64,000 bases of DNA, taken from the NCBI GenBank assembly GCA_019914995.1, contig CM034133.1, positions 682,001 through 746,000 on the forward strand. The letters run 5' to 3'. Each line of letters opens with the position of its first letter. Positions within the stretch are counted from its first letter, which is position 1. Source of the stretch: Acanthochlamys bracteata. Taxonomy: Eukaryota; Streptophyta; Magnoliopsida; Pandanales; Velloziaceae. The notes beneath the pieces are model-generated. The model was not told the DNA's origin and searched no databases. It saw nothing but the letters and a program-made list of their open reading frames with translations. Both the position numbers and the translations under genes were made by a program. Below are positions 16,025-60,590 of this stretch, piece after piece.

Positions 16025-18471
16025 TCAATTGGTGTAAGCTTGCAGTTTTCTTCCACCTTGCTCTTGTTCTTCTTCAATCTCTACTGTCAGAAGTAAAACC
16101 AGCATTGCGTTTAAATAAGATGATCAAGTGTTTTGTATGATGAATGCCAACAAAGAAAATGAAGTTCTGAGCTTTCCTATGATATTTACCTGCATGAGTA
16201 TTTGCTACAATCTTTGCAGCTGATGTCCCCTTATTCTCCTCCTTCGTCAGCACCAATGAGACAGCATCTCTCACTTTCTCCACCATGCTTCTATCCCCAT
16301 CGTCGCGCTTGGCCTTACTTCTGGGACTTATGGCCTCAGTAATGGCTCTGGAGAGTGCCTTCTCATCTTCCCCAGGTTCAAGCTTCTGCATGATATACTC
16401 TTTAACTGAAACACCCTTATCAGAAGTCATCTTTGAATCCATCTCGTAGTCTCTTGTAGGGAGCTGAGTATTTGAAGCAAATGCATGCGTCACTTCTGAA
16501 ACCATGTTGTATGCAGGTGCAAGCATCTCTGTCACAGCCTCAGTTATGCTCTTGTAGTTGCTGTTAGTGGTGGTGGTGTTGGTGTTATTGTTGCTATTTC
16601 TTTTTTCAGCAAAATCTTCTTTTTCCAGTAAAATCTTCTTTGGGGGATAATGAGACTCGCAGTTCTCCTTAGCTTCTGCTTCATTATTGTCCTTCTTCGT
16701 TAGGTGTGCATCTATGTTCTTACTGTGGCGAGGAGTAGAAGCCTCAAACTCATCAAGATAGTGAAGAGCGAGTTCATCAGCATGCTTCAGTGCCAGTTCT
16801 TTGTCCGGATCGGTGGATACCGTAGTAGGACTGTTGGCGTGACATAAAGGTGCATCAGCATCCTTCATTGCTAGTTCTTTGTTCAGAGTACTGCTGGAAG
16901 CCTTGGTAGGACTGCAGGCGTGGCCTATACATGCATTAGCATCCTTCATTGGCATTTCTTTGTTCAGACTGTTGGGAAACTCAGTAGGACTGCTGGCATG
17001 GCCTAAAGGTGCATCAGCATGCTTTACCACTGGTTCTTTATTCAGACTGTTGGGTACCTTAGTAGGACTGATGGCATGCAGTGAAGGCACATCGGCATGC
17101 TTCATTGCCAGTTCTTTATTCAGGCTGTAGGATGTCTTAGTAGGACTGCTGGCATCGCGTATAGATGCACCAACATCCTTCATCATCAGTTCTTTATTTG
17201 CGCTATTGGAAGCCATAGTAGGACCCGTGGCATATCGTGATTGTGCATCAGCATGCTTCATTGCCAGTTGTTTGTTTGGGCTGATGGATGCCATTGCAAG
17301 ACTGCTGGCATGGTGTAAAGGTGACTCCTCGATTATGCTTGTGAGTGTTGTAGTCTTAGAACTACTCTGTCCACCTTGTTGTAGTAAGATTGTTTTTCGT
17401 TGATTTGGACTTGTTGTGCTTATGGGTGACGATTGCTTGCTTGAACAGGGACTTCCCGTTTCACGAGCAATTACTGAATTTGCTTCACTAAGACTTGCAG
17501 GAATTTTCTGGACCTGACGGGAAGATGACTCCTTATAAGAATCAGGAGCAATTTGCGATTCGTACACTGGTATTTATCAAGAAAGGAATACCCATAAGTT
17601 TCTCAGCATCATGAAACTGAGAATTAGAAGCATGCAAGAAATGAACTAGATAGTTAATATGAGAAAAAAGGAAGTCTTTCAAGGAAAGAAGATCTTTACT
17701 TGGGGCACCATAGTACTCTGAATCCTCTTCCTCATCTTCGTCACCCAAACTAGCCCCCCATGGAGGCGTTTCATTGCTTCTATCATGCCCGTGTTTCTTC
17801 TTTGCGAGCAAACTTTTCCACTTCAATGCCTTCTCCTTCACCTTCGCTAAAACTGACTTCTTTACATGGTGGTGATCAAGATCGTGATCATGTTCATCTT
17901 CATGGAAATACCATCTTCCTATTACAGGGGAATGGCCGTGGTCATCTGCCACACCTGTAAACCACCAAGCAATTACAAATGAATGAGCTCATTTATCAAC
18001 TAGGAAATAAGTTTTACTTTCGATCTGCAGTGCTCAAGAAAATCCTACACCTTGCCTCAAAGTTAAGATGAAGAGCAGTAGCGCTTGATCTCTTTCTTGT
18101 AAACTATAGCGTACTTTTGCAAGCAGCTTTCAACACAATTGTTTGTTCCATAAAAATTTTTCATACACTATGATTCTTAAAATTCTTACTGGAAGCGGCA
18201 ATTCAACAAACAATTTACTGGCGTTCATAAAGAACATAACAATTCTTTTCTAATTCAAGGAAGAACACAAGAAGATTTGTTATCATCAAATAACTCCGCT
18301 TCACGATTTTTACATAGAGTACAGTACTCTAGTAAACTAGAACTGAAAGAACAATCAGCAAAAAAGTAGAGAATAGTGATAAAATTGTTTACCAGGGAAC
18401 AGCTGGTATCCATTTGATTGTTTACCTGCCATAGGAGATTCAACCCTTTTCATCGTTCTGCTTCTATCCAT
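16025..18471 (-). CDS. LTI65: LTI65/RD29-type low-temperature and ABA-induced protein (CAP160 family)
   Basis: Hydrophilic, stress-induced protein of the LTI65/LTI78/CAP160 family; its biochemical role is not established. Four exons, read leftward, join in phase: 18471-18426, 17954-17700, 17566-16190 and 16083-16025, giving about 578 residues. Seen: an N-terminal RTMKRVESP; a His/Asp-rich stretch, then SVLAKVKEKALKWKSLL; an acidic EDEEEDSEYYGAPMYE; about seven 26-residue repeats of type NKELAMKHADxPxxHAxSPT (about residues 184-368); then SITEAVTEMLAPAYNMVSE and VSVKEYIMQKLEPGEDEKALS, the family's conserved C-terminal blocks. The repeats replace the usual linker and inflate that part. An ABRE lies upstream. 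Confidence 0.88.
16764..17318 (-). repeat. In-frame 78-bp tandem repeats within the LTI65-type gene
   Basis: About seven direct repeats of about 78 bp encode 26-residue units of the form (N)KELAMKHADAPxxHASSPTxxPNSL. Lys-Glu-Leu-Ala-Met-Lys, Ala-Asp and Ser-Pro-Thr are best kept; linker residues vary. All units keep the reading frame, so selection or recent expansion has preserved the frame. Confidence 0.8.
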
Positions 18472-23849: not shown

Positions 23850-25200
23850 TTTTAAGGTTTATAAATGGGCTGTCAAAATGGGTTGGGCTTGTAGAGGACA
23901 TTGAGTTTAACGCCAATGTTTATATTTGAATTGTTTATTTAGTGTATGAAAGGTCTGCATTAAATAAAGAAAAGTCCAACCAATTAAAAATGTATTCTAA
24001 ATATACATGATGCTAGGCTTAATCGACTAATTCTAATCTTATAGAATAATAATATGTACGAGTCCGTATTAGACCATTTAGATTTAGCGTGTCTTTAATA
24101 TGTCCATAACTTCACTTTTTCTCGTCAGATTTTAAATTTCGAACCGTTTATATATTTCAATTATACAAAAAATTAGAATTTTATTTTCACATATCAAACT
24201 CTAGTTCTAATTTTTTTTTTTTACACTTTCAATATAATTATATTTTCAATTTCAACTTAAAAAACTATTAAAACATAAATACTGAACTCCACTTTTATTT
24301 TTATTTTTCAAAAAATTATACTTTTTATTTTTCACTTTCACGAAACTCAGTTACACGCATTTAAAACACGCCCTTAAAGACAACTATTTGTTCAAATGTT
24401 CGAAACTTTAATTTTTTTCAGCAGAATCAAAATTTTGAATAATTTATATATTTCAAATATACACTAAATTGAAATTTTTATTTTGAAATTACTATAATAA
24501 AATTCTCTCAAATCCCACGGTGATCTTTATTTCCGCCCATTTACAAAAACAATTATAAAACAATTGAACCATAAATTCTGTTTATAATTTATTTTTCAAA
24601 AAACTTTATTTTTTATTTTATGGAACTCATTTATGTGTATTTAAAATGCACACTAAATGAATCACTGCATGCCCTATATGTTTCTCACCAATCATTAGGA
24701 TCGGAGCTTTTACGATGCAAAGAAGGAAGGAAAATCAGTGGTCGCATTTGTGTTACCTGCTGATGATAACATGAAAAATTGGACCATTAGATCAAATAAA
24801 CAGAAAAATGAAAGTATGTTAACTACTTGATAAAAACGGAAGAACAATGTCTAGATCTTTGAAATGGATGAAAATATTCTGCAAACAAATTCACAAACAT
24901 CATTGCCTCAAGAATAATGGAGAAACAACCAGAGATACTTCAACTGAAAGTTCTGCAAAAAAATAAAACATTCTAGGCATTTACAGGGAGCCGATTGCAT
25001 CAGAATGCCTAGCAATGAACAGAGATATATTCCAGAGAACTCTAGCAACAACATACCAACCCATTTGGCAACTTAGAGCTATAATTTTACAGTTCAACTA
25101 AAAAATCAAAACTTATTTTCTACACTAACAGAATTATGCGACGTAAAGACCACTCAACCAAATAATGATATTCCACAAAAAGAAGTAGCCAGCAGTTAAT
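23850..25200. other. Spacer between the PPR gene and LUX 3' end
   Basis: TGGGCY-type motifs (ATGGGCTGTC, TTGGGCTTG) lie close upstream of the PPR start at 23860-23895. A family A A/T-rich repeat runs from about 24085 to 24376. The stretch 24670-25250 is probably LUX 3' UTR or downstream DNA. No open frame of interest. Confidence 0.45.
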
Positions 25201-25252
25201 TTGAGGGAACAGAGTCAGAATAAAATAAAGAGCCAAAAACTAATCAATCATT

Positions 25253-26233
25253 CTATTTATCATTGGGAGTAACTCTACGAATCGAAAACATGGAGCCAAA
25301 CTTGTTCCTTCCAGACCAATCCTGTCCATATGGATTATGGTGTTGCTCGAATCCTGGGTACATGTTCGGCTGAATCATTACCATTGCGCTCTGCCCGTAA
25401 GGCATTGGCATGGAAAACATTGGTGGCATTGCGTATGGCGTTGGCATAGACACAGCCTGAGGTTGCTGCTGGTCTTGACTGCTCTGCGGCACCGGAGTCG
25501 AAGCAAGTAAGTGATTGGTCGACGAAGACAACCTGCCTTCTGAAACTACTCCTTGCATTCGTTTCAAATAAAGCCTGTACTTTTGCAAATGGCTAGCAAC
25601 ATTTTCTCTGGTTAGTCCTTCAACATTCATCAACTGCATAATTGTTTTCGGCACGGCGTTCTTAATCCCCAAATGCGTGACAACTTCCACGAATCTCTTA
25701 TGAAGCTGCGGCGTCCAAACCAATCTCGGCCGCTTCAAAGTCTTGGCTGAATTCTCTTCAGCCGTTCTCGAATCAGTGCCTTCCTCCATCATCATCATCG
25801 GCGCCGGCGTAGCAGAAGAAGTTTCGAACCTTCTAGATTTTTGCGAACTCTCGCCTAAATTATTATTATTCTCATCTTCTTCCACAACCGTTGGATCTTC
25901 ACCTCCTCCGCCTGTGCCTACAACTACAGACGATAAAGTTTTAAACCGTTTCGACGAACTAGACGAAGACAACCGGCGGAGATTCGAAATAGTGTTCTGA
26001 GAAGCCCGATGAACGTCCATCGCCGTGCGTGAGGGATTGTTTGATATACTGAAAGCATTCGAGAGTATTTGACTGAGAAGCTTCTGATCCAACGGCGTTA
26101 ATTCTTCCGTCGGTAATCCATCAACCCATTCACGAACGTGTTCTTGAGATTCACCATCTCCGTTTTCTTCTTCTCCTTCGCTTCCGAAAACGCCGTTAAC
26201 CATCATAATCTGCGTTTCTTCATCTTCCGCCAT
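25253..26233 (-). CDS. LUX: GARP/MYB-like clock transcription factor LUX ARRHYTHMO (PCL1) type
   Basis: DNA-binding member of the evening complex with ELF3 and ELF4; it represses PRR9 and growth genes at night. Single coding exon, 326 residues. The SHAQKYF-like GARP domain spans about residues 167-227 (KRPRLVWTPQLHKRF, then NAVPKTIMQLMNVEGLTREN, ending VASHLQKYRLYLKRMQG). Before it lies the conserved VREWVDGLPTEELTPLDQ region and DVHRASQNTISNLR; after it STPVPQSSQD and a late NKFGSM, shared with LUX/BOA rather than MYBC1. A probable 100-bp 5' UTR intron lies at 26373-26274 (CAG/GTACCT to TTGCAG). LUX versus BOA cannot be separated without a tree; in most eudicots there is one gene. Confidence 0.9.
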   Translation of the reverse strand: MAEDEETQIMMVNGVFGSEGEEENGDGESQEHVREWVDGLPTEELTPLDQKLLSQILSNAFSISNNPSRTAMDVHRASQNTISNLRRLSSSSSSKRFKTLSSVVVGTGGGGEDPTVVEEDENNNNLGESSQKSRRFETSSATPAPMMMMEEGTDSRTAEENSAKTLKRPRLVWTPQLHKRFVEVVTHLGIKNAVPKTIMQLMNVEGLTRENVASHLQKYRLYLKRMQGVVSEGRLSSSTNHLLASTPVPQSSQDQQQPQAVSMPTPYAMPPMFSMPMPYGQSAMVMIQPNMYPGFEQHHNPYGQDWSGRNKFGSMFSIRRVTPNDK

Positions 26234-26390
26234 GAATTCTGTTATAGACCATTCAATCTACTCTACTTTATACCTGCAACAATAAACTAAACATAAATTG
26301 AAGAAAAGAAGTTACAGAAAATCGGGGAAAAGAATTTTCGGAGAGCCGGTGGAGTTGAAGAATAAGAAGGTACCTGAACGAGTTGGGTAA

Positions 26391-26499
26391 AGATATTTTG
26401 GAGAAGTTGTGGTTCGCGAAGAAATGAAAGGCAAGAAAGGGAAACGCTTGCTGAGATATTTATTATTATTTGTTTTTTGGACATAGTCTGAATCACGTG
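26391..26499 (-). promoter_or_regulatory. Evening elements and G-box ahead of LUX
   Basis: On the minus strand a perfect evening element AAAATATCT sits at 26399-26391, just upstream of the probable 5' UTR splice donor. A shorter form AAATATCT lies at 26461-26454, and a perfect G-box CACGTG at 26494-26499. Evening elements are bound by CCA1/LHY/RVE factors, which drive dusk-phased genes such as LUX; G-boxes are bound by bHLH/bZIP factors including PIFs and HY5. The arrangement over about 110 bp fits clock and light control. The transcription start is not known, so the first element may lie in the leader. Confidence 0.6.
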
Positions 26500-27223
26500 C
26501 TCAATTCCGCAGTTTTGGCAAAAGATCTCACCTTTGCAACATAGTCCTTAATAATTGCAACATGTATATATGTGGGAGTTAATTCCCGCAAGCATTGAAG
26601 TGTAGGAGTGAACTGTTTAAAACGTGCGCCTACTCGCCTGAGTTTGCAAAATGCAATGAGAATTTCTCTTGTTTTTTTTAAATCCATGAAAAAAGAAAAG
26701 AAAATACAGAAAGAGATGCGGGAAAATGGAAGACCAGAAGTGGAGCAAATGAGAGTAGTCGATTTGATGCGGTGGGGCCTACGCTGACCCGGTCCATCCG
26801 CACATGATAGATAAGGTTCTCTCTCTTTAAAACATGTTTATTCTGTGGCAACTCGAGTGGGTCCCGCTGCGATATTTGTACACACTTGTCCCTAGTTAGT
26901 TATCAGAAACGAACGGTGATTACAAAATGATGATATGGTTGTCGTAGACTAGGAGTTGTCACTTGCTTGCATTACAAGGCCCTTCCAACCAAATTGCTGC
27001 AAAAGATTCCAAAACCAACTGCTCTGGAATTCTTAGAACCAGCCCAACAATTAAGTAAGATTGTTAATAGTGGGCCTAAGGTTTTCAAACCAGCCCAAAT
27101 AAGGAAATATGTGTACCGAAGATATTAAAGAAAACATCTCAGCCGTTGAAAAAAAAAGAGCGCCAAATAATCAACAAACCATCGGCCGTCCACAATCTCT
27201 TTCTATCCAGAGACTTATCAACC

Positions 27224-27859
27224 ATGTTCTCTTCTGCTGCTTCCACTCCGGCCATCTCCCTCTCCATCACCGCCGCAGCCGCAACAACTCGTAACTCATC
27301 CTCTCTCTATCCGTTACTTCCACTAACTAGTACTAGCAGAAGGAGAACAATAACAAGAATCAAGCTTCGCCGGAGATTCTCTGCTGGTGCTACTGCTGCA
27401 GAAACTACTGCTGCTGCTGGAGATTCTTTGCAAGAGACTGCTAAAGAAACTGTTTCCTCTGCTCTTTCTTCAGCAGTTCCTTCTGTTGTTGATGTCGATG
27501 ATCCTGGATCAAGTGTTATCGCTGCACTGTTTCTTGTTGCTTTCATCGGCCTCTCTATCCTTACCATTGGGGTATAAATAAATCTCTTCTCTCTTATCAA
27601 GAAAAATCAAAGCTCTTTGAATGATGTGTTCTGCTTTTATTACGAAAGTTACGATTTTGCGGAACGGGTTTGTAATGGTTTGTTTGAGCAGGTGATATAC
27701 TTGGCAGTGACAGATTTTCTTCAGAAGAGAGAAAGAGAGAAATTTGAGAAAGAAGAAGCTGCAAAGAAGAAGAGTGGGAAGAAGAAGAAGGTGAAGGTTA
27801 GAGCCGGACCTAAAGGATTTGGACAGAAATTTGTAGAAGCTGAAGATGAAGATTACTGA
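27224..27859 (+). CDS. Small single-pass plastid membrane protein, function unknown
   Basis: Two exons join in phase: 27224-27571 and 27692-27859, giving 171 residues. The first part is Ser/Ala/Thr/Arg-rich (likely plastid transit peptide up to about residue 55). One hydrophobic segment spans about residues 98-125 (IAALFLVAFIGLSILTIGV and onward), followed by a highly charged tail KREREKFEKEEAAKKKSGKKK and AGPKGFGQKF. It resembles conserved plant chloroplast proteins of unknown function (I think of At5g16660/At3g02900, from memory only). A codon at 27146 would add 26 lysine-rich residues unlike a transit peptide, so I chose 27224. It is divergent to LUX; TGGGCC and AGCCCA motifs lie about 130-155 bp upstream. 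Confidence 0.8.
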
Positions 27860-28362
27860 TTATTTCTTCAAATTTTCTTCTTCTCTTTCAAATTTTGAAC
27901 TGATCAAACTTCTTGATCATCAGTAGCAGGCTACTATATGTTTTTTTGCATGTTAGAATATAGAGATTGGAAATTTTCTGTACTTCCGTTTCTTACCAGA
28001 TTGCAAGAGATTGAAAATTTTTTACCATCTTCTTTTGAAGATCCATGCAGTTTGCTTCCGAAATATTTCAGTACATTGTGTTCTAAATGATAGTAACAGA
28101 AAGTAAAAGATACAGAAACAGAAGAATCTGACAAGAAAAGAACCTGATAGATAACATAAGTTTGAGATACAAGTTAACTTACATGATCAGAAAAACGTTT
28201 TGAGCTTGAAATGGAACATAAGCTAGCAACCGATCCTAACCTAAAACAACGGTAGCTCTTCACATCGAGAACATTTGTACAGTCTAAAGTAAGTACTCAC
28301 TACCCTGCTTCCTTTTTAATCTTGCTACTTTGTACAACCACGAGACTTGCACAGATATCGTC

Positions 28363-28412
28363 TCCTCTTGCAGAAGAACAAAGAGCCTCCTCTTGCAGAA
28401 GAACAAAGAGCC
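28363..28412. repeat. Perfect 25-bp tandem duplication in the Pumilio 3' UTR region
   Basis: TCCTCTTGCAGAAGAACAAA plus GAGCC occurs at 28363-28387 and again, identical, at 28388-28412. It lies about 160 bp beyond the Pumilio stop codon (minus strand), so probably in the 3' UTR. Identity of the two copies suggests a recent slippage or duplication. Confidence 0.85.
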
Positions 28413-28569
28413 TTCCGCCTTGCCATAATTTAGTGTAATATCAAACTACAAAATGTACATGTTTGATACAAGCCAACTACATTATTTTCAATCACCTTGT
28501 ACCTGATCCTAAAGAGTGAAGGATCTCAAACACTAGCCTCTGTTAGCTGTACAACTTCATCTCCTACTT

Positions 28570-31500
28570 CTAAGAGGTATGAGAATTTCGCATTGCGATC
28601 CTCCTCTCTGCAAGACGAAAAAGATAAGTCCAAACATAAGCTTCGAGAACCATGAAGTAAAAAGTTAAAATTGCAAAGAAGTTGGTAGCTAATGAGAACG
28701 AACTCAAAAAAGATAAGATGGAAGTGTCTTTTTTCAGAATAGGGAAAAAATCTAGTGACTTCTGAGAGTAAGAGAGAACATACCACCAGCTGCAACAAGT
28801 TTCTCTACACGTGCAACTATATGTTTCCCATAAGTGTACTTTTTGAGCGCATTCAAATGCACCTTGATTCGTGATAATATTAGTTCGCGCTGCTGATCAT
28901 CACAAGTCTCTAGCACCTTTTGCACAACATAGTTTGCAAACTGGTCTTTCATCATTGCCTGAAAAGGAGAGATAAGGGACCAAATAAAGTAAGCTAAAAT
29001 CCATCTAGACTGAAGCATTCAACAAATGCAAAAACTAAACTCAATTATCCTGGGAGAGCGACATGCAATGAAACATTTAAAGAGGACTATATATAGAAGC
29101 ATTGGAAAGAAAATAAGCATAGACAATAAAACAAGAAGTTAAAGATGAACCTGCAAGGGCTCGTTCTCATCAGTGGTGCCGAGCATTTCATTTACTATCA
29201 TTTGCCGTTCAGCAAGCTCACCAAAACTTAAGCATTTCTCAATAACATTTGACGCAAATTTCTGCTGGCTCATTTGAACTATCTGTCCAGCTAATTTCTC
29301 AATAATAGCTGAGCGCTCATGAGGTTTCCCATGCTCCAACACATGCTGAACAGTATATGCAGTATAAGTTTATATAGAATATAGGTAATGCAAACAACTA
29401 CAGAAGAGCGGGTATATGCTTTGCAAGATGATTTTACAAAATGCAAAATATCAAAGGTGATCTTATTTTAGACGCATTACAAAATGAAATAATGACACTA
29501 GCTAAGAAGCGAGCGTGCAAAATCAAAGAGGTGTTAACATATTGCCACCAAAACCTCATACTGTCAGCAAGATAAGATTTTCAACAAAATAATAGCCAAA
29601 GCATTCTTATACTGAGAGCATTTCATAAAGCTTTTTCATAACAGAGAAAGCTGTTCCAAACAAATATCATCAAGCCTTGCTTAAGATTACAGAAACCTTT
29701 TGTGACCATTTATTTATTCTGTGCAAGCAAGTAACAGTTTGATATTAAAATTGTAATACCAGGCAAATTTGTTAAAAAATAAGCAGATGACATTACTTCT
29801 CAAAGCAGATGGTAAAAGATGTAACTAGGAAATTCAAATCGCAGATGTCACAAGTAAATACCTGGACAACATAGTTTCCATATTGGTCTTGCGCCAACCC
29901 GCAAATACATTGCATTATCTCATCCATCACTATCTGCTGTGTTTTAGGATCGTAACAATGCTCCAACACCCTCTGCAAAGCAAAATATCTATCTAGCTGA
30001 AGGTGGACAAAGATGAGCTGATTAAAGAAAAACATGAAATTCATAAGAAAGCAACTGCAAACCTGTATGACACGGCAACCATACGGATGCATTGATAGAT
30101 TTACAACTTGACCATAGAAAGATGTGACGATAAACTGAATAGCATCTTGTGGGATGCATTCAATACATTTCTGAATAACATGGTTGCCATTTTGGTCACG
30201 CACACAGCGCATGACATGACCGTCAAGTTCCTTGACCATTTTAGCTTTTTGATCAAGATCAACAACTTCTATTGCCTGAATTAACAAAAGAAGTCACCAA
30301 CTACTTCGCAAAATCAATAATTGTGAACAAAGAAACATCTAAATAATAAATATAACAAAAAAGATCAGATTAACATTCCTCGCTCTCTCTCCCACCCTAC
30401 TTCCTGCTTACCTCTTTGCAACTTGCTACTTGCTTCCAAATGATACATATTAACCATAAGAGGCAAGCTGTTCTATAGCACCTCTTAGGCTACCTTATAT
30501 TTCAGCAAGCTATAAATTTTCCTTTTGAAAACATTTGGCTTATGTTTATGCAAGTAAGTGTGCACAGACAACCAGATGTTTCCAAAACTCACTAGTCCTC
30601 CAGGAGGCATTCCTCTTCAACAACAATACACTCAATTCTGAGCCATCTAATACAGAAATGCAATAACCCCAAGCTTTCCATTTAAAAGTAAATAAAACAA
30701 TGGCACGCATGAAAAAAAAAAACACAGTTTATGGTGAATGTACTTACTTTCTGGATAACACGACAACCATACATCTGAAGACTAAGTGCAAGTACATTGC
30801 CAATTAGCTGTTCGGCCAATTCCCTGATTTGAGCTGGACTTCCATGATCAAAGAACTGGTACGAAGAACAATGAACAACAGGCACCATTTTACACCAGAT
30901 CATTAACAAATCGCATCACACATATATGTGGAAAACAACATACCTTTTGGACAACATAGTTCCCAAAGACATCTGTCATCAATGTCAGAGAATGAGGCAT
31001 GATTTCATCAAAAACCATGTTCTTTTCTTCCATGGTCGCTGTTTCAAGCTTCTGTTGGATAAATCTACTGCCAAATTGATCAGCACTGTGGAATTTAAAA
31101 GATTTAAATCAGGACAGACAAACTTTACAATAGGGCACTTAAAAAGAAAAAAATCAAAACAAAAATGGTTGCATAATATGTATACATGCTAAAAGAACAG
31201 GTTTAAAATGATGCTAGGTGCATACTATAAGAGCTTGTTTAGTATGCAAAGCCAAGTGCCAGTGCGACTCATATGCTTATGCCCTCTACAATAATTGAAC
31301 TTGCTTATATATTGTGCCTCTAATGCAATTACGAAGAACGCAACATTGCTACTTTTATAAGCATCGTATATAATGTATATTATGATTTCAGCAAAATGCA
31401 AAAGACAAGCTTTACACATATCTTGTCATGGCTTGTATATTCCTTCACATATAGACCTTTGGCACATGGGAGACCAAATACAATTTTTCATGTGGTTTCA

Positions 31501-34500
31501 CATTTATATATGCATAGGCTTATCTAAACTGCAGAACCTCGCCATGAGTTATTATCCTGATGTCATACTATACTTTTCATTAGTGCTGTTAGAATATTAG
31601 CAGTAAATAAAAACTATCATTCCCAAGCTTATTGGTGATTGTATCGTACCTGAATTCCACAACATGGGTAGCAATACTGGAAAGTTCATAACACTTGGTT
31701 TTGTTATTCTTGAACTCATCCAGCAGTGAGGATGCTAAAGTACCATCCATGCTACCACTGATATCAGAATGCCAAGTATTCATAACACCTCCACTAAAAT
31801 TGTGCATGCCAGAAGCAAAGCGTAAGCTGCTTTCTCCATGATGAAGAGGACTGGCAGGTCCTACGGGAGAACCACTGCGTATAGAACTTGCTAAAGGGCT
31901 TCCAGGGTATGGCATCCCAAGGCCAAGTGCAACATTACCATAATAACCGTGGTTTAAACCTCCAGATTTACCGAGAAAAGGTGTGTCATACTGCTTCTGT
32001 GAGTGAAGTAACGAACTCAGATAACCTTTCTGCATTCCAAGTAAATCAGTATAAGCACTCCCCATGTAAGCCCTCTCAATAGAAGGATCACCAAAACCTG
32101 TAGCTTGAGCTGCATACTCCGCATCTCGTAAATACTGAACATACAGTGGATCCAGAAGGGGTATCTGAAGAGAAGCTGCAGCAGCATTATCAGTAATGTT
32201 ATTGTTTTGCAATACAGATCCACCTAAAGTTGATCCTAGAGGCCTGGAGTTCATAATGGGTGATGCAAGTCCAGATGCAGCAATTGTGTTTTCCAGAAGA
32301 GGAGGCAAACTACCTGCAGCAAGTTGACTAGCAAGCATGGATGCTGGATCAAGAGAATAACCAGACAAGCCATAGTTTCCAAAAGCTGTGTTTGCTCCTT
32401 CTCCATTCAAATAACGGAAAGGAGAACCCCCAGGGTTCCTGACAGAATGGATAGAGGAACCTTTAGAAAAAGCACCACAAGAAGAATGTTTTGTCATATG
32501 CAGATCAAGAGGTCCATCTTGCTGCATATGTGAACTGCTCAAACCATCTAAACCCACTCGTCCTTTAGCCAAGTCAGGAAATGATAGCTTGCCAGGATTA
32601 AGAGCGGATGATGAATCCATATCTTTATTGTGGCTCCGAATAACATGTGAACCAAACAGATACGAGTGATGATTGTCATTGTCCCTTTGAAGCTTTGCTT
32701 TAGCAATTGTACGTTCATCAATATCTCCAGAAGAAGAAATGTCCATGCCTGACAAAGCTGCTACAAGATCATCAGAATCTTTTGGATCTGAACAGCCACT
32801 GAAAGAGGATGCAGTCCTCTTGTCTGCAGCACCTGGCTTTGTGCCAACAGGTGGAAGGCCAGGACTAGGAACCCGTGCAACTAGCTGAGAATCAAGAGTG
32901 TTACTTCTGGAAAGAGATGAACTCAAAACAGAGGCAAAGGTTTGAGAAACTGGCGTGCCAACAGTCTGAATTCCTGATAAGTTTTGGATACTCCCACCAT
33001 GGGGCATCCCATCTCGAGATCCAATGTCATTGAGGAAACCATGAGGGACATCAGCTTTACCTATCGGTTCAATACCACTGTCAAATGTATTGCGGCTGGT
33101 TGGCCTGGAAGGATGGCTCGGGATTGGAGTAGTACGTCCAACGTCATCCTGCAACCCAAATCAGAGTCAACTTGCTAGCTTAATATGTTGGAAATAAATC
33201 ATGCTAAATTGTTCTGGGCAGCATGGAAGAAACAGAACAAAACAAAAAAGAAAAATGAGTCTTCTACTCAGTTATATCTAACTTCAGGTGCATCATAGGG
33301 GATGCAACTAAAAAACATAACTTGGTTTAGTCCTGATGTGCCACGCAGAAGATACTACACATTCTCCTTGCATACGACATTTGAAAGCTACATACAGATT
33401 ATATAGGCATAGGAAAATTCACTTAACATTCACTTTAACATTCAAAAGCTACTCATTGTCCTTGTATTTTGATATTATGCATAGGAACGTTCACTTAACA
33501 TTGGAGTTTGAACCAATCATGGAATGAGTTTTACCCAATGAGCTTGCGCTAGCAAAGTCTTTAATACAAATGTCGATTCCATAAAGAACACAAAGAAATG
33601 TATTTAAGAAGTGCTGCTGGTCACCAAGAATCTTTCTTTTCACAAGTACCAAACTACACTAAAAGACAACTCCTAAGGTGAAGGCTACAAGAATTTCGAA
33701 GTGCCTAACTTTCCCAAGTAGCCCCAAATCCATTACCAAGGGAAGCTTCCTACATAGCTAGCAATAGAAGATGATTGCAGCATATATGGAGAATGATCAT
33801 TAGCGTTCACATTATGAAAGACAACTTTAAGCAATTGCGAGCTTATTCATACTCCAATAAGAGTATATGAAAAAATGTGAGTCATTTACCAACAATCAAG
33901 TTAAGTTTTTCCCCACTATATTATGTGGGATATTATTACCTGAAGGATTTCGACAAAGCTCTTTTGCCGGCCAAGCGTTATCCCTGGCAATCCAATCAGT
34001 CCACCGCCTTTATCTTTCCAGTCTCCTGCACCAGGCACCTTCACCTGTCCGGTAGTTATTGCAGTTTCACTCTCCATATCAAACCCAGGCTGCTTTGAGA
34101 AGAGCGATCTGCTAGCCCCTTCGTCGTTCCTGACCACCTTTCTTCGGTCGCCTACTCCACCGAGTGATGAGCTATTTGCCTGTTGCAATCGCTGCGCAAA
34201 TCTCCAGTCTTCCTTCGACAATATCGGCGGCGGTAGTCTTGGATTGAGATTGACATGCGAGTAATAGTACGACAAGTAAGCCGGGTCTGACCGGAGCTCC
34301 TCTTCAGATAATAGTCCGTTATCATTTTTTCCAAACAAGCCCCCGACTGCGGCAAGTGATCCCTCGACGGTGGGAGGTGCCGAGCCGCTTCTATAAAGGC
34401 TCAGCTCACGTTCCCTATCACTAGCTTCTTGTTGCCGCTGCTCACGAAGAAGCGTTCCCAATTCCCTACCCAAGTCATCATTGTTAAATCCATCGTTCAC

Positions 34501-34539
34501 TGAGCCAATCGCCGGCCTCAACCCCACATCAGACAACAT
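28570..34539 (-). CDS. Pumilio/PUF RNA-binding protein (APUM1-6 clade)
   Basis: Post-transcriptional regulator binding UGUA-type sites in mRNA 3' UTRs. Nine exons join in phase, read leftward: 34539-33940, 33148-31650, 31085-30944, 30855-30748, 30275-30063, 29972-29862, 29345-29151, 28958-28784 and 28607-28570, giving about 1026 residues. The long N-terminus has the clade's NABP-type region: [50 protein letters not shown] and [16 protein letters not shown]. The C-terminal third holds eight PUF repeats, starting near [16 protein letters not shown], with recognition phrases SRFIQQ, NYVVQK, CRVIQK, NHVIQK, CRVIQ, NYVVQ, SNVIEK and NYVVQK. It ends [13 protein letters not shown]. Which APUM is the counterpart is open. 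Confidence 0.93.
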
Positions 34540-37500
34540 CTTCGTTACAATCTCTACTAGCGATCAATAAAATACCAAATCAGTGCAAGTTATCAAGAAA
34601 CTTCGCAGCTTTTGATCAGTTTGTAATCCCAAAAGCAAAAACCTACTGGGATAAGTCAATGATCACTAAACAACCCGTTCCAGGAACTTAAAAACAAGAA
34701 CATCGAAACAAAAAATAGAAAACAAAGCCAACGATCTCGACTTGATCAGCTTGATCAGACTAATGGAACTCAACCCACAGCGAAAAACACGAATAATATC
34801 TGTAATGGTTCAATTTCTAACCCAAAGAAAACCCGAAGCCCCAGATTGATCACAAATAAAATCCCAAGATTAACCAGTGATCACTAAGAACATTCAACAA
34901 CACAACCGATTAGTGGCAATTGTCCCAGAAGAACCCTCGAATTCATCAAAACATGAAAAGATTGGATCTTTATCTAAACCGAGTTGATCGGCGATTAAAG
35001 ATTGGTTCCACCATTAGAGCCGCTAACGAGAAAAGCTCGGTGAAAGAGAAAGAAAAAAGAAGAAAGAAGAAGAAGAGTGAAGCGGGAGTCTGATAAAGCA
35101 CGGTGGTCTATGAAACCACAGCCGTTGAACCTCATCATGGACGGCTGTGGTTGATTTATATGCGGCGTCTGAAGAAGAACCCTAATAAGGGTTCTATTAA
35201 TGCAGGGGGGCGAATTTATTTCCCGCGGATTAATTTCTCTGCTTAATAATAATATTAAATTAATTTAAAAGTTGTTATCTTCTTTCCTAATTGTTTCTAC
35301 TTTTCAACTCTACATTATTTCTTTCTAAATATTCATCTATCAGTTAGCAAGTGGACACGTGGACTGTTGTAACTGGTGAGTCTGGCAACAAGGAGAATTT
35401 GGTTTGTTCCTGCGGGAACACGGGACCGAGTTAACTGCCACGTCGACGAAGAACTCGGTCTTCGACGTGCGGCTCGCACGCAGAGCGAGAATTATATTTC
35501 GTTAATTAAAAATTAGTTAGAAATTATTTTTGGGAATCTAAGAAGAAAGATAAAACCATTTGTAAAAATACAATTTTTAAAGAAAAGAAAGAAAGAAAAT
35601 TTGTTCTTCGTGATTTTTACCCATGTTCACTGCCATGGTTGACGTGCATTATAAAACTATAAAATGTAGTAAGAGCATATTTACTTTATTGGTAGAATTT
35701 TTAAGAAATAAATTACTTAAGTAAGTTTCATGTTTACTTTTTTAAGATAAACGTAAAATTGTTTGTGAAGAAAAATATATTAAAATGTATATAAATATGC
35801 TTTACACTTTTTTTTAGTAAAATGTGTTTTAAATATTCATTTTTTTGTCAAATTTTAAATTTAGAATAATTAATATAATTTAATTATATAAAAAATTAGA
35901 ATTTTATTTATGTATACGAAATTTAAATTTTAACTTTTTTATTTATATATTTCTAATATAACTATATTTTTTAATTTTTAATATATTTTTAAATTTTATT
36001 AAAATACAAGAATTGAATTTAAAAAATTTTATTTTATATTTTTTATTTTTACGAATTCAATTACGTGTATTTAAAATATGCTCTAGAAAAACATTGAAAA
36101 TGAATGGATTTCTCTTCCTCTTAACAGACATGATTTGTTCTTCCACTCTATCAACCACTGCTGCTGATTCTCCAACGTATAGACTATGGATTATTAAAGA
36201 TTATCAGGGAATGCAATTAATTTGCTGCTTTTTTAAAGTTTGGAGAGACACGTAACATGGATGAAGACTTAAGTAGAACATGCATGAGAATGGTGCTCTC
36301 TGCTCTGCTCTTGCTCTGCTGGTGAACTCCGCACCATCCAAACAGGAACCAAATTTATTTTCTTGGTTTCTGAATCCAATTTCTTCAGTGAATTTGAAGC
36401 GGTTGCTTCATTCAAGTTGTTCTTGTGACTTGTGAATGGAAGAGTGTAATCCCTGTGTGTAATAGGTATTAATTTATATATGATAAAATAATTTAATTTA
36501 TTTAAAAATTTTATATATTATATACAATTGAAATTTAAATTAAAAATGCTGACGACTCTGTGTAGATTTGGTAATAACGTCATCAAAAGACCGAGTGCAT
36601 GCTTGACAATACTTATCATTACTTTTTAAAAAAAATTATTTTTTACTAAATATTTTTTATAGTATTTTTATTTTAATAAATATAAACAAATTATATGTTA
36701 TATGTATTAGTTATATATATATATTTTTTTTTTTCTTTTAAAAGTTAAACTTATTTCTAAAAAATTCTTAAAATGTTTTTAAAAATATTTATTAGTTTAA
36801 ACACTTTTAAATATATTTTAAAGCAGTTAATGCCTCGATGTGGGCTTACAGATTTTGTCCAGAAAAGCCCATCAATTAGTGGGTTACCTTGGGCTTCACT
36901 CTGAGATATAAATATAAGCAGATTACCGGCCGTATGAAATATTATAATTAGTTTATAATTTTTAATATATCTTTTTTATTGAGCAAGTTAATTAAATTTG
37001 AAATTTACATAAAAAATGATAAAATACAGCAGGTATTAGTGCAAAATTTCTCATGGAGAGATATTTGAATCTTTGATTGCTAGCTAGAATTTAAACGGCA
37101 TTGATGGAACGTGACAATAATACGAAAACATGATAATAATACGAAACAGCATCACCTGCTATTAAATATTTCATTAATTTAAACTGACTTCTATCAACAG
37201 AGAAATTTGCTTGTTTAAATTGATATTGTAAAGATAATTGAAAACATTTGAAAAGAAACATGGGAACCTACGAACATGTCGACGTCAAGTCAAGCTTGCT
37301 CTGGGCAGGAAAACAGAAGAAACAAAAAATAAAGTAACAAAATTGGGAGATGGATATGAACCGAAAGAACCGTCTTTTTTTAAATCTTTTTTAATTTAAC
37401 ATATATTTTAAATATACATAATTAAATTTTATAAAAATAAATTTTAGAGTTCGATAAAAATAAAATTCAAACTAAAATTTAAAATAAATAAAATTAAATT

Positions 37501-43153: not shown

Positions 43154-43723
43154 AGAGAATTTTTTAGCACTCCATGGCAGCAGCAGCAGCAGCATGATAT
43201 CCTCTTCTCAATTGTATAAGTTATTCATGTAAAACTTTAAACAGTCAAATAAAATTTTAAACAGTTTTGTTATGAGAGGATATTTTTCTTACTCCTTCTA
43301 ATGCTGATCATATAAACAGACCTGAGAAAACTTTTGTTATCCATGGTTTAATAAGCAAACTCAAAGCCTGATATGTAAAATTCATAACCTTTCCGGATCC
43401 AACCGTTAATTACCAACGGACTATTACGTCCGTCTGCGCGATATACTACAAGGCAAGGGCTTATTTGTAAAAGAATCACTGACTTTAAATTTATCTAATT
43501 CATGCAGAAAATCAGAGAAAAATCGGCCTGTAGTTTTCTTTCCCTAAATCCTCTGACTCCCGAGATTCTTTACTCCCTATCTATTTCGTTCTTCCCCAAT
43601 CTTACAAAGATTTCCATTTTTTCTTCTCTCTCTCTCTCTCGGAGATTCTTTTCTTTTCGATTTTGATTTCGATTTCGATTTCTTGAATTCTTCTTGAAAT
43701 TTTCGTGGATTTAATTTGAAGCC

Positions 43724-45782
43724 ATAAGCTTCGTCTTCCGTGGTAGTCATAGAGATATCGAGAGTGGCTTCACTAATTTCATACCAGAAAGACGTGCCTT
43801 TGTATTGCTATTGTTAAAACTTCTGTTCATTACTGAATTTTTATTGTGTTTTTAGTAATGTGAAAGCAATTCTGTTTTCATTTGCATGATCAGCGGATGC
43901 ATGCCGGTGTTGGCTCCAATTCCAATTCCATGGCTTTTCTCATCACAGGTATTTGATTTTTAATAATTTTAAAATTTTAATTTTTTATTTTATTTTTTGG
44001 TTGAAATTTGGTTCTGAAGATTGTTTCTTTTGCGGTCTTGTAGTGCTTTTTCTGTTCATGATTTTGAATTCACATCAGATGACGCCGAATTTTCTGGTAC
44101 GTGTTGAAGAAAAGGCGCATTTTTGGCCAAGGTTGTTGCTTTTTATCATGATAATTTCCTAAGTTTCAGCTAATTTGGTTTTGTGGTTATGTGTACGTTC
44201 TTAGCTTTGGCTGGTTTTGGGAGTGTTCTTGATGGCTACAAGCCTTAGGATGTATACTACATGTCAGCAACTGCAAGCACAAGCTCAAGCCGCAGCTGCC
44301 AGCGGATTGGTCGGACACACCGAGCTGCGGCTGCATGTTCCTCCCCCCATCGCATTTGAGACGAGGGGGCGGTTGCATGGTTTAAGGCTTCAGCTTGCCC
44401 TACTGGACCGAGAATTCAATGAGTTGGGTAATTAAGCATCTCCTGTGTCGTATCCAATCTGTCTATGTTAGATTATAGCTTGAGTTGTGCTTCCTGTTAT
44501 GTATGATAGATTATGATGCATTGAGAGCTTTGGACTATGATAACAATCTCGAGGTTCCTTCAATGACCGAGGAAGAGATTAATACTCTTCCCATGCACAA
44601 ATATAAGGTGCAACTGCAAACTGGTTCTACATCTGATCTGCAAAGGCAAGTATCTTGAACTTTTAGATTTGGGGTCTAGCTAGACACGATTACATATTAA
44701 CTGTCCAGTTTTCCAAAAGGTGTTTACTATTGTCAAGATGTTTACAAGCATTTTCCTTTTGGGATTAAATCATATTGGAGATCTTTCTCAAGTTTTAATG
44801 AAAATTCTACCAGCTTTCTTTGAATTTGTGATCTTGTTTCTTTTTCAGTAGCGAGCCATCTGTCCATCAGGGATCGGCATCTTCTTCTTCATCTTCTCTT
44901 GCAACAATGTCTGAGGTAGTAGTGGGTGCACTTCTCCGTTGAATTTTTGAGATAGCTACCTTGTATCTGTTTAGTGTAAGTAATGAAGACTACATTTGGA
45001 CTCTGAACTATACTTGAGTCACTCAGACTTCAATATATATCTTATATCTAATACTTTCACTATCTGTGTTATACTATTCGAAGAGAGCTTTCACTTCTAG
45101 TTTTACTACAGAATCTAATTTACAGTTCTTTTCTACAAATTTTCAATTCGGATAGCATGTACAGGATTCTTGTTTGGTTCCCATAAAAGGTAGAGTACAT
45201 GTAATTTCATTTATGACTCTGTAGTATAATATGCTAGAAACCAACCTTTACCATAAAAGAGAAGTAACAGTGTTAGAGGAGGGTTTCACTAATTTTTTGT
45301 GCTTTAGCTTGATTTTAGAATTTGCTCACAGTTTTAGATTGTTTGCAATTGTAGTTGTTTTCTTGTATATTATGTTACTGAACGATAAGGGCTTTCATAA
45401 AGAAACTCTTTTTTACGGGTCATCCTTTTCTTTTTAGAAGAAAAAAAAGAACAGATCCAGCTCAGATGGAAATGTGAAGGGCTCAGAAGATGAACTAACA
45501 TGCAGCGTTTGCTTGGAGCAAGTTGGTGTAGGGGAGCTTGTGAGAAGCTTACCTTGCTTGCATCAGGTTTGTTCTTACGGTTTCATGATTTCATAGTTAC
45601 GGTAGTTAATCTTGTAGACGCCATATACTGAGTTATTTGGATATTGTTTCGTGCAGTTCCATGTGAATTGTATTGATCCATGGTTGCGTCAACAAGGCAC
45701 TTGCCCTGTTTGTAAATATCGTGCGAGTTCTGGGTGGCTGGATAATAGGGGAATACAAGCGGATGCATCTTTTATGGTGTAG
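43724..45782 (+). CDS. SDIR1: SDIR1-like RING-H2 E3 ligase, expected start codon is ATA
   Basis: Membrane-anchored ubiquitin ligase acting positively in ABA and salt signalling. Eight exons join in phase: 43724-43801, 43894-43948, 44044-44096, 44205-44427, 44510-44645, 44849-44915, 45438-45566 and 45657-45782. Seen: DIESGF and PERRA near the N-terminus; two hydrophobic segments (LITVLFLFMILNSHQM and LLWLVLGVFLMATSLRM); LRLHVPPPIAFETRGRL; RLQLALLDREF; RING-H2 with CSVC, LPCLHQFHVNCIDPW and CPVC; ending DASFMV. The codon aligned with the family initiator (before Ser-Phe-Val-Phe-Arg-Gly) is ATA at 43724, with an in-frame TAA four codons upstream. The first in-frame ATG is 43897 in exon 2, which would give 261 rather than 288 residues. 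Intron 5 is GC-AG. Otherwise intact. Confidence 0.85.
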
Positions 45783-46341: not shown

Positions 46342-48490
46342 TCAACACTTTGGAAGGTCGACCGGCGGCGGTAGAAGCTTCTGATTCGGAAGTTCTCCGT
46401 CAAGCACCAGCCACGCCATCTTCAGTCCCCAACTTGTGTGCACTTCCAAGTGACAATGCATAAACCAAACCCCTGCAACAACATGTAAAATTTTATATAA
46501 TTATCGTCTATCAGGTGAAGCTTTTGGATTTAAATAAACAGCACTCACCTGGATTATCAGCTAAAAACCTGATAGCCGCCCAACCACCAGAAGGTACACC
46601 TATGGTGTTCCTCTCTACTGGATCGATCAGATTAAACTTGGACGGATCATTCAATGGATCGTAGTTCCCGATACCTTCTCCGACGACAAAGAAGTTGAAT
46701 CCATGCAGATGCAGTGGGTGGCTCTCGGTCCCTAGAATGCTCGTGTCCTGCAGTACAAGTTCTACACTAGTGTTAAAAGGCAGGACCAAAACTTTTGTCC
46801 CATTGCTAACAAACGTGTTGTTCGGCGGCGTGCCGGTGTAGTTGAAAGGATCTAGAGGCACGATTGGGAAATCCGATTGATATACACCGTTAGATTGGCC
46901 GGTGTAATGCGCTTGAAGCAATGCTGTTGAAGGCATAATGAAAGACACATTGTTCACGCTTGCGGAAAACTTTGTGCCGTTAGGGCCTTGGCATGTTTGG
47001 TTCGCCGGACATGGCATAGAGCCGAGATTGATAGTGAAGAAGAATTGTCGGTCCACCGTCTGCGGCACGTTTGCCGGGAACTGCGCTGTCGCGAGGCTTC
47101 GTAGTTTGCTTGTGTAGTTCATAGCGAACGATGTGTCGTTGAGTTTCGGCAGCTTGGGTTTGAAGAGAGAGAGATCCTTGATAGATGTTTCCGGTCTCTG
47201 ATATTCTAGAATTCCGGCGACAGTGGTGTTGTCGAACGTGCCGATGCCGGTTTCGTAGGGCCGCGCCATCATGAGGAACGTTGCGCTTGGGAAGTCTGAC
47301 TTAGTGCGAAGGAGCACGTTCGTCGTTTGTCCTGGTGTAATCAGAAGCGTATCGGTGTCGAATGGCTTAACGTAAACGGCGTCAACTTCGACTACGGTGA
47401 CGGTGTGGTTGGCAATGCTGAAGAAGAGGTCATCATTCATGGCAGCACTGATCAACCGGAGCAAGTACGTCTTTTCGGGCTTCACTTTTAGCTTGAACGT
47501 GTCTGCATACACCATTCATACGGATCAGGGTTAACTTCGCCGCTGCAATAAACTAGCTAGCTAACTACGTAATTAACAAGTAAAATGTTTATTACCTTTC
47601 GCCGAGCAGTTGTACAACGGGCCAGGGAGGCCGTTGATAGTGTACGCATCGGAAACATTCGGGCCACCTCCGGTCAGTAGAGCTTGATTGATAACTGCCT
47701 CTACATCGGAGTTCCACCATTCTCCTTCAAAGGGTTAAAAAAATAAGGATAACGTCTGAAGTTTTGCAAAAGATGCTAAGTAAGGATTCTTACCGAAGAT
47801 GACCGGAACTTCTTTGTAAGGTTTGGCGAACGGATAAGGCATGCCAGACTTGGGAAGGATAATAAGAGGGCCGTAGAGTGTAGCTCTCATCCACGACAGG
47901 TGAGCGTGCCACCACAAAGTCCCTCTTTGTCCGACGACGGTGAAGTTGTAAACGTAGCTCCTGCCGATCTGAATCGGGCACTGCGTTATGTACGCCGGAC
48001 CGTCGGCCCATCCACTCCTTAGCTGCCTCACTCCATGCCTTCAATCAAATAAAAGCACGTTGCTAAAAGAACAAACGGATCGTTCGATCTAAAACCTTAA
48101 ACCAAAGCAACATAACGTAAGTGTTCGATGAAATATTGCTATTCGTTTTGTTACCAATGGAAAGAGACGTTATGCTGGACATGGTTAACGACTTTGACGA
48201 CGAGCCGGTCGCCTTCTCTGACGACGAGTTTCGGTCCGGGGAACTTACCGTTAACAGTCGGGATGCTCTTCGTGTTGCACAACCTTGTAAAATTTGCCAT
48301 TCGAATCTATGTACATGTGCGAAGGAAACAAAAAAAGTTTTAGAAAAGACTTGTGTTCTTGATGATCATGAGTTGAGAATACATGCATGTATACCTTGAA
48401 TATGTAATGCCTTGTTTGCTGAGCATGAGCATGCAATGAAGGAATGAACAACACCAAAGCACTCAAAGCTAAGATGATCAATCTTGCCAT
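46342..48490 (-). CDS. LAC17: Laccase (multicopper oxidase), LAC17 type
   Basis: Secreted p-diphenol oxidase; LAC17 with LAC4 polymerises monolignols in the wall. Six exons join in phase, read leftward: 48490-48395, 48306-48155, 48038-47794, 47724-47596, 47502-46549 and 46472-46342, giving 568 residues. Exons 2-4 have the canonical laccase lengths of 152, 245 and 129 bp. Seen: a signal peptide (residues 1-23); copper motifs [17 protein letters not shown] and [12 protein letters not shown], all intact with Leu as the axial residue; many Asn-X-Ser/Thr sites; C-terminus PPPVDLPKC. The N-terminal part after the signal peptide drifts somewhat from LAC17. A TATA tract lies at 48572-48589. Confidence 0.93.
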
Positions 48491-48571
48491 GGAAATACTT
48501 CAAGCTACAACACTCTTGTCTGTTGTTGGAATGTTTCTTGATTCTATTGGAGAATAATGTAGCTCGAATCT

Positions 48572-60429: not shown

Positions 60430-60590
60430 GTCATATATTGCCGATGCAGCATCATCAAGATTCTCATACACTGATGATATAAGCTAAGCTTTAATTTAAT
60501 TTCATCATTGGATGGAAATTTTATAAGCTTGCTTGCTCTTTGTGTAGAGATGTGAATCTTGATAATGCCACAGCAGCAAACGATGACTGC
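60430..60590 (-). ncRNA. MIR172: MIR172 precursor hairpin
   Basis: miR172 represses AP2-type genes (AP2, TOE, SNZ/SMZ), controlling flowering time, phase change and floral identity. On the minus strand the 3' arm (60464-60444) is identical to the known 21-nt mature miR172: it starts AGAATCTTGATGATGC and ends TGCAT. The 5' arm (60571-60551) starts GTGGCATTATCAAGATTC, a miR172-5p-like sequence. Pairing arm to arm gives about 18 of 21 canonical pairs plus G-U pairs and one A-A mismatch, with 2-nt 3' overhangs possible. The loop is 86 nt, normal for this family. A splice donor (GCAG/GTAAAT) at about 60353 suggests the primary transcript is spliced. Hairpin limits are approximate. Confidence 0.92.
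60444..60464 (-). ncRNA. miR172: Mature miR172 (3p arm)
   Basis: Twenty-one bases on the minus strand identical, as I know it, to the miR172a/b mature form with A at the 5' end and CAT at the 3' end. The opposite arm is at 60551-60571. Confidence 0.92.

Follow-up and report, generated by a model that had tools for sequence, protein, structure and literature searches.

The 64,000-nucleotide window analyzed here, which lies in contig C8 of the assembly, contains an SDIR1-type gene on the + strand. Its coding sequence comprises 867 nt in eight exons and, read from the codon at the family's start position, stays open up to a TAG stop codon at 45780-45782. Exon 1 (43724-43801; 78 nt) holds codons 1 to 26 and is followed by exon 2 (43894-43948), exon 3 (44044-44096), which contains part of the membrane-span region, and exon 4 (44205-44427), which contains the second membrane span and the middle part of the protein. 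Exons 5 (44510-44645) and 6 (44849-44915) precede the two exons that encode the RING finger, its first part in exon 7 (45438-45566) and the remainder, together with the stop codon, in exon 8 (45657-45782). Six of the seven introns are of the GT-AG type, while intron 5 (44646-44848) has a GC donor (exon-intron boundary AAG/GCAAGT). At the protein level, Pfam model zf-RING_2 matches residues 224-266 of the 287-residue query (E value of 1.2e-13), and 19-residue Kyte-Doolittle windows scoring >1.6 delimit two hydrophobic spans, residues 34-57 and 58-79. The features that mark SDIR1-type genes—a C-terminal RING-H2 finger, two N-terminal spans, and eight exons with seven introns—are all present. Judged by these features, the gene is of the SDIR1 type, and E3 ligase activity at the ER is predicted for its product. 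A search with phmmer matched 41 PDB sequences, none of which covers any part of the protein before residue 198; no solved structure for the N-terminal part was therefore found among them.

The gene departs from its family at the first codon. This codon reads ATA (43724-43726), and a TAA (43712-43714) lies in the same frame four codons upstream; a preliminary description of the locus had reported both features, and their coordinates are correct. Residues 2 to 8 nonetheless fit the motif MSFVFRGS, which we take to be the N terminus of the SDIR1 family. Exon 1 had also been described as lacking an in-frame ATG, and in fact it lacks an ATG in any of the frames. The ATGs listed around this exon are at 43502 and 43858, with nothing in between. 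In the spliced mRNA, the first AUG past 43502 is located at 43897 in exon 2, in frame and at codon 28 (Met28). Initiation at this codon would remove 27 residues and leave a 261-residue product; as had been anticipated, the missing residues would all precede the first membrane span, since the spans begin at residue 34. The context of the Met28 AUG (cggAUGC) is poor. A second AUG only 4 nt beyond it, at 43901, is out of frame and opens 21 codons, and the subsequent in-frame AUG, also in exon 2, is at 43930 (Met39). The AUA itself is found in the context gccAUAA, with a G at position -3. Apart from the start codon, no stop, frameshift, or splice lesion was detected in this copy, which agrees with the earlier view that the rest of the gene is intact: the frame is open to the TAG, the RING finger is present, and the splice sites are kept, including the GC donor of intron 5. 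The several disabling lesions of a duplicate pseudogene were thus not found, the start codon being the sole lesion.

The preliminary description had proposed looking for another SDIR1 copy, and one was retrieved, with an ATG start and within a duplicated block, on contig C11. The genome searched comprises 195.5 Mb in 557 contigs. The protein search gave 138 listed matches, with the best 136 of 194 first-look candidates scored. Among the matches listed, two loci reached at least 73% (the gene in the window and the gene on C11); the rest were at or below 58% and mostly covered RING-finger regions. A DNA search with window positions 43500-44500 returned the C8 and C11 places only, among the best candidates scored, and within that same scope neither the protein nor the DNA search found a third close copy. 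The SDIR1 group of Arabidopsis is described as consisting of two proteins (PMC6118397), so a more distant member of the group may sit among the weaker matches. The C11 gene (7305125-7307369, - strand) has exons of the same lengths as those of the C8 gene (78, 55, 53, 223, 136, 67, 129, and 126 nt), and no indels separate the two coding sequences. The GC donor of intron 5 (AAG/GCAAGT) is common to both copies and therefore probably predates the duplication.

At the start position, the two copies differ by a single base. Across columns 43712-43726, 14 of 15 positions are identical, including the in-frame TAA; the one mismatch falls at the third position of the start codon, which is G in the C11 copy (ATG at 7307369-7307367) and A in the window. 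The family motif is accordingly complete in C11, from its ATG onward. With an ATG aligned in a nearly identical context, the resemblance of the ATA codon to a start codon is, on the alignment, beyond chance. Upstream of the gene, a leader-like stretch without any ATG (43507-43723) is conserved between the copies (147 of 217 columns identical), compared with 47 of 147 columns for positions 43400-43506. Because the C11 paralogue has an ATG, as does wheat TaSDIR1-4A in a figure legend (PMC7501821), the ATA is the derived state, a point change that affected one member of the duplicated pair.

The paired genes belong to a longer stretch of correspondence. Matches between C8 and C11 run from approximately 6761 to 63936 of the window, mostly in order, with collinear neighbors on both sides of SDIR1; scattered repeat matches also occur within this stretch. 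From this arrangement, the pair probably arose through a whole-genome or large segmental duplication, of which the former is favored. One segment, at approximately 25148-35235, has the opposite orientation in C11, while its flanks are collinear; it carries Myb-like and Pumilio/NABP-like genes. The frame at 16077-17573 (- strand) contains an LTI65/LTI78 PGEED repeat (Pfam E value of 9.6e-18) and has numerous overlapping alignments with a single C11 stretch, which suggests that it has internal repeats. Scans of the entire window for Rfam families (at the gathering threshold) and for tRNAs yielded a MIR172 precursor as the sole match (60434-60583, - strand, 79.1 bits), far from the SDIR1 gene.

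Start codons were also compared with C11 for nine other genes in the window. These genes were picked for M-initial frames, so the presence of ATG in nine of nine window genes is by choice and does not constitute a control. Their C11 counterparts have ATG in six cases, AAG in one (a PPR gene), and a position partly in a gap in another (a plastid-type gene). The start of the laccase gene aligns to an ATA in C11, in a weak and untrustworthy alignment (score of 64). For this gene (46343-48499, - strand), the C11 block clearly matches parts only, and the C11 laccase copy may be broken or diverged.

Substitution rates bear on when the start was lost. For the SDIR1 pair as a whole, dS is 0.439 and dN is 0.069, giving a dN/dS of 0.158. 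Codons 2-27, which would be left out of a Met28 product, have a dN/dS of 0.188 on few sites (6 synonymous and 5 nonsynonymous changes), and the value for codon 28 to the end is 0.154. On these few changes, constraint on codons 2-27 looks similar to that on the remainder, and a long-standing loss of the N terminus from the protein was rejected on this comparison. These values fit an exon 1 that stayed under constraint through most of the time since duplication, which would point to a recent loss; the change is probably recent, or else an allele or an error. Likewise, the finding of no lesion besides the start limits neutral evolution to at most 8 to 14% of the C8 branch since duplication (95% bound, assuming indel-to-substitution ratios of 0.05 to 0.15 and half of dS per branch). 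We also considered faster evolution of the C8 copy. Beyond codon 1, the copies differ at 39 amino acids, of which 19 could be polarized with an Arabidopsis protein sequence as the outgroup, 12 to C8 and 7 to C11, leaving 20 unpolarized; the excess is weak and not significant (P = 0.36), and relaxation is not shown. With the same outgroup, 2 of the 12 C8 changes map to codons 2-27 and the other 10 lie further downstream (P = 0.30). Synonymous divergence is uneven along the pair (dS of 0.61 across codons 59-160 but 0.23 from codon 223 to the end), reflecting either chance or partial gene conversion.

The explanation that we consider probable is that a G-to-A change removed the start codon from one of two SDIR1 copies left by a large-scale duplication, with Met28 as the fallback start, and that the C8 copy is now either a weak allele or a pseudogene at an early stage. 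In the proposed sequence of events, a large-scale, probably whole-genome, duplication would have left two close SDIR1 genes, and a recent G-to-A change would then have converted the ATG of the C8 copy to ATA. Under the scanning model, ribosomes would pass over the AUA and in most cases arrive at the AUG of exon 2. The product would be made in reduced amount and would comprise 261 residues, retaining both membrane spans and the RING finger. Given the poor context of the Met28 AUG and the out-of-frame AUG nearby, a reduced and perhaps very low output is expected; the likeliest product of the C8 copy, if any, is predicted to be this Met28 form. The C8 copy would be covered by the intact C11 copy. 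The preliminary description had left three options side by side, namely, a non-AUG start, initiation at Met28, and an allele or sequence error. Since the paralogue begins with ATG, the ATA is derived and in a redundant copy, which makes a functional non-AUG start less likely than the Met28 fallback or an allele.

The main rival to a real start loss is that this base is wrong in the assembly, or is one of the alleles at a polymorphic site, and that the normal gene starts with ATG. Such an origin would suit a lone single-base difference with no further lesion in a gene as well kept as this one (dN/dS of 0.158). We regard it as rather unlikely, however: the DNA search of the 557 contigs turned up neither a second allele nor a haplotig among the best candidates scored, and long neighboring frames with Pfam domains are open (e.g., 588, 523, and 418 amino acids), an observation that bears on indels more than on substitutions. 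A much less probable reading is that an upstream exon provides an in-frame ATG and that splicing skips the TAA, an escape also raised in the preliminary description. A scan for such structures took ATGs from 43170 onward, allowed a single GT-AG intron, and considered acceptors as far as 43728; removal of the TAA requires the intron to end after 43714. Six frame-compatible structures can be drawn, half of them beginning at the ATG at 43194 and half at the one at 43502. All six, however, need the AG at 43720-43721 or 43727-43728, both of which are AAG, and they are unlikely on that account; the acceptors in both SDIR1 genes are CAG or TAG in 14 of 14 cases. The ATG at 43502, moreover, lies just beyond the conserved leader and is missing from C11. 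A survey lists a 5' UTR intron in rice in a table row that covers RING groups, SDIR1 among them (PMC6118397, Table 3), which makes a leader intron conceivable, yet one ending before the TAA would be of no help.

It is also improbable, in our assessment, that the AUA serves as a weak start and supplies some full-length protein alongside the Met28 form. AUA is a poor initiation codon, and it is not ancestral to the pair, given the ATG of the C11 paralogue, the single relative compared for conservation of a near-cognate start. Nor was RNA structure that might assist it found in exon 1, which, taken alone, folds no better than shuffled sequences (z of -0.52). In favor of such a start are the G at -3 and the peptide downstream of the ATA, which is still SDIR1-like. 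A virology paper counts AUA among the codons known as weak starts, plants included, and places near-cognate codons, AUA among them, typically at 2 to 15% of AUG initiation (PMC4422679); with AUA initiation reported, a trace of full-length protein is possible. An extension of this idea, a split of roles between the copies at translation, seems hardly to be expected; C11 would make the full protein, whereas most of the C8 product would be the Met28 form, and initiation at the AUA would add a trace of the full-length one. Were it true, the predicted outcome would be a membrane E3 ligase that lacks the conserved N-terminal segment.

Loss of the start codon in one duplicate remains the reading that we prefer, and it looks like an ordinary event in duplicated plant genomes, the early decay or weakening of a spare copy. 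If real, it would represent a stress-signaling duplicate caught at the onset of loss or change of function, with its intact twin as a built-in control. Automatic annotation may give a 261-residue protein here and miss the lost start.

Comparison with known systems places the gene among the SDIR1 RING-H2 E3 ligases. For wheat TaSDIR1-4A, the published description gives eight exons separated by seven introns, a pair of N-terminal spans, and a C-terminal RING-H2 finger (PMC7501821), and seven coding-sequence introns are given for the SDIR1 group in Arabidopsis and rice (PMC6118397); the C8 copy differs from the family in that its start position lacks an ATG. The moss E3 GpDSR7, which has been mentioned alongside SDIR1, was set aside as a guide to the N terminus, its membrane spans being C terminal (PMC4882056). 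Plant genes with non-AUG starts resemble the C8 copy in that a near-cognate codon occupies the family start position here with a G at -3, but the commonest near-cognate codon is reported to be CUG (PMC11062462), and use of AUA here is a candidate case. The Arabidopsis allele FRI-Ler likewise has lost its start codon, and a downstream in-frame ATG drops 42 residues with partial retention of function (PMC4158083). In FRI-Ler, the start disappeared through an indel (376 bp deleted, 31 bp inserted), and the authors attribute the effect mainly to expression lowered by the indel (PMC4158083), whereas in the C8 SDIR1 gene one base is changed in one of two duplicates. By analogy, FRI-Ler may serve as a precedent for start loss with a downstream in-frame ATG.
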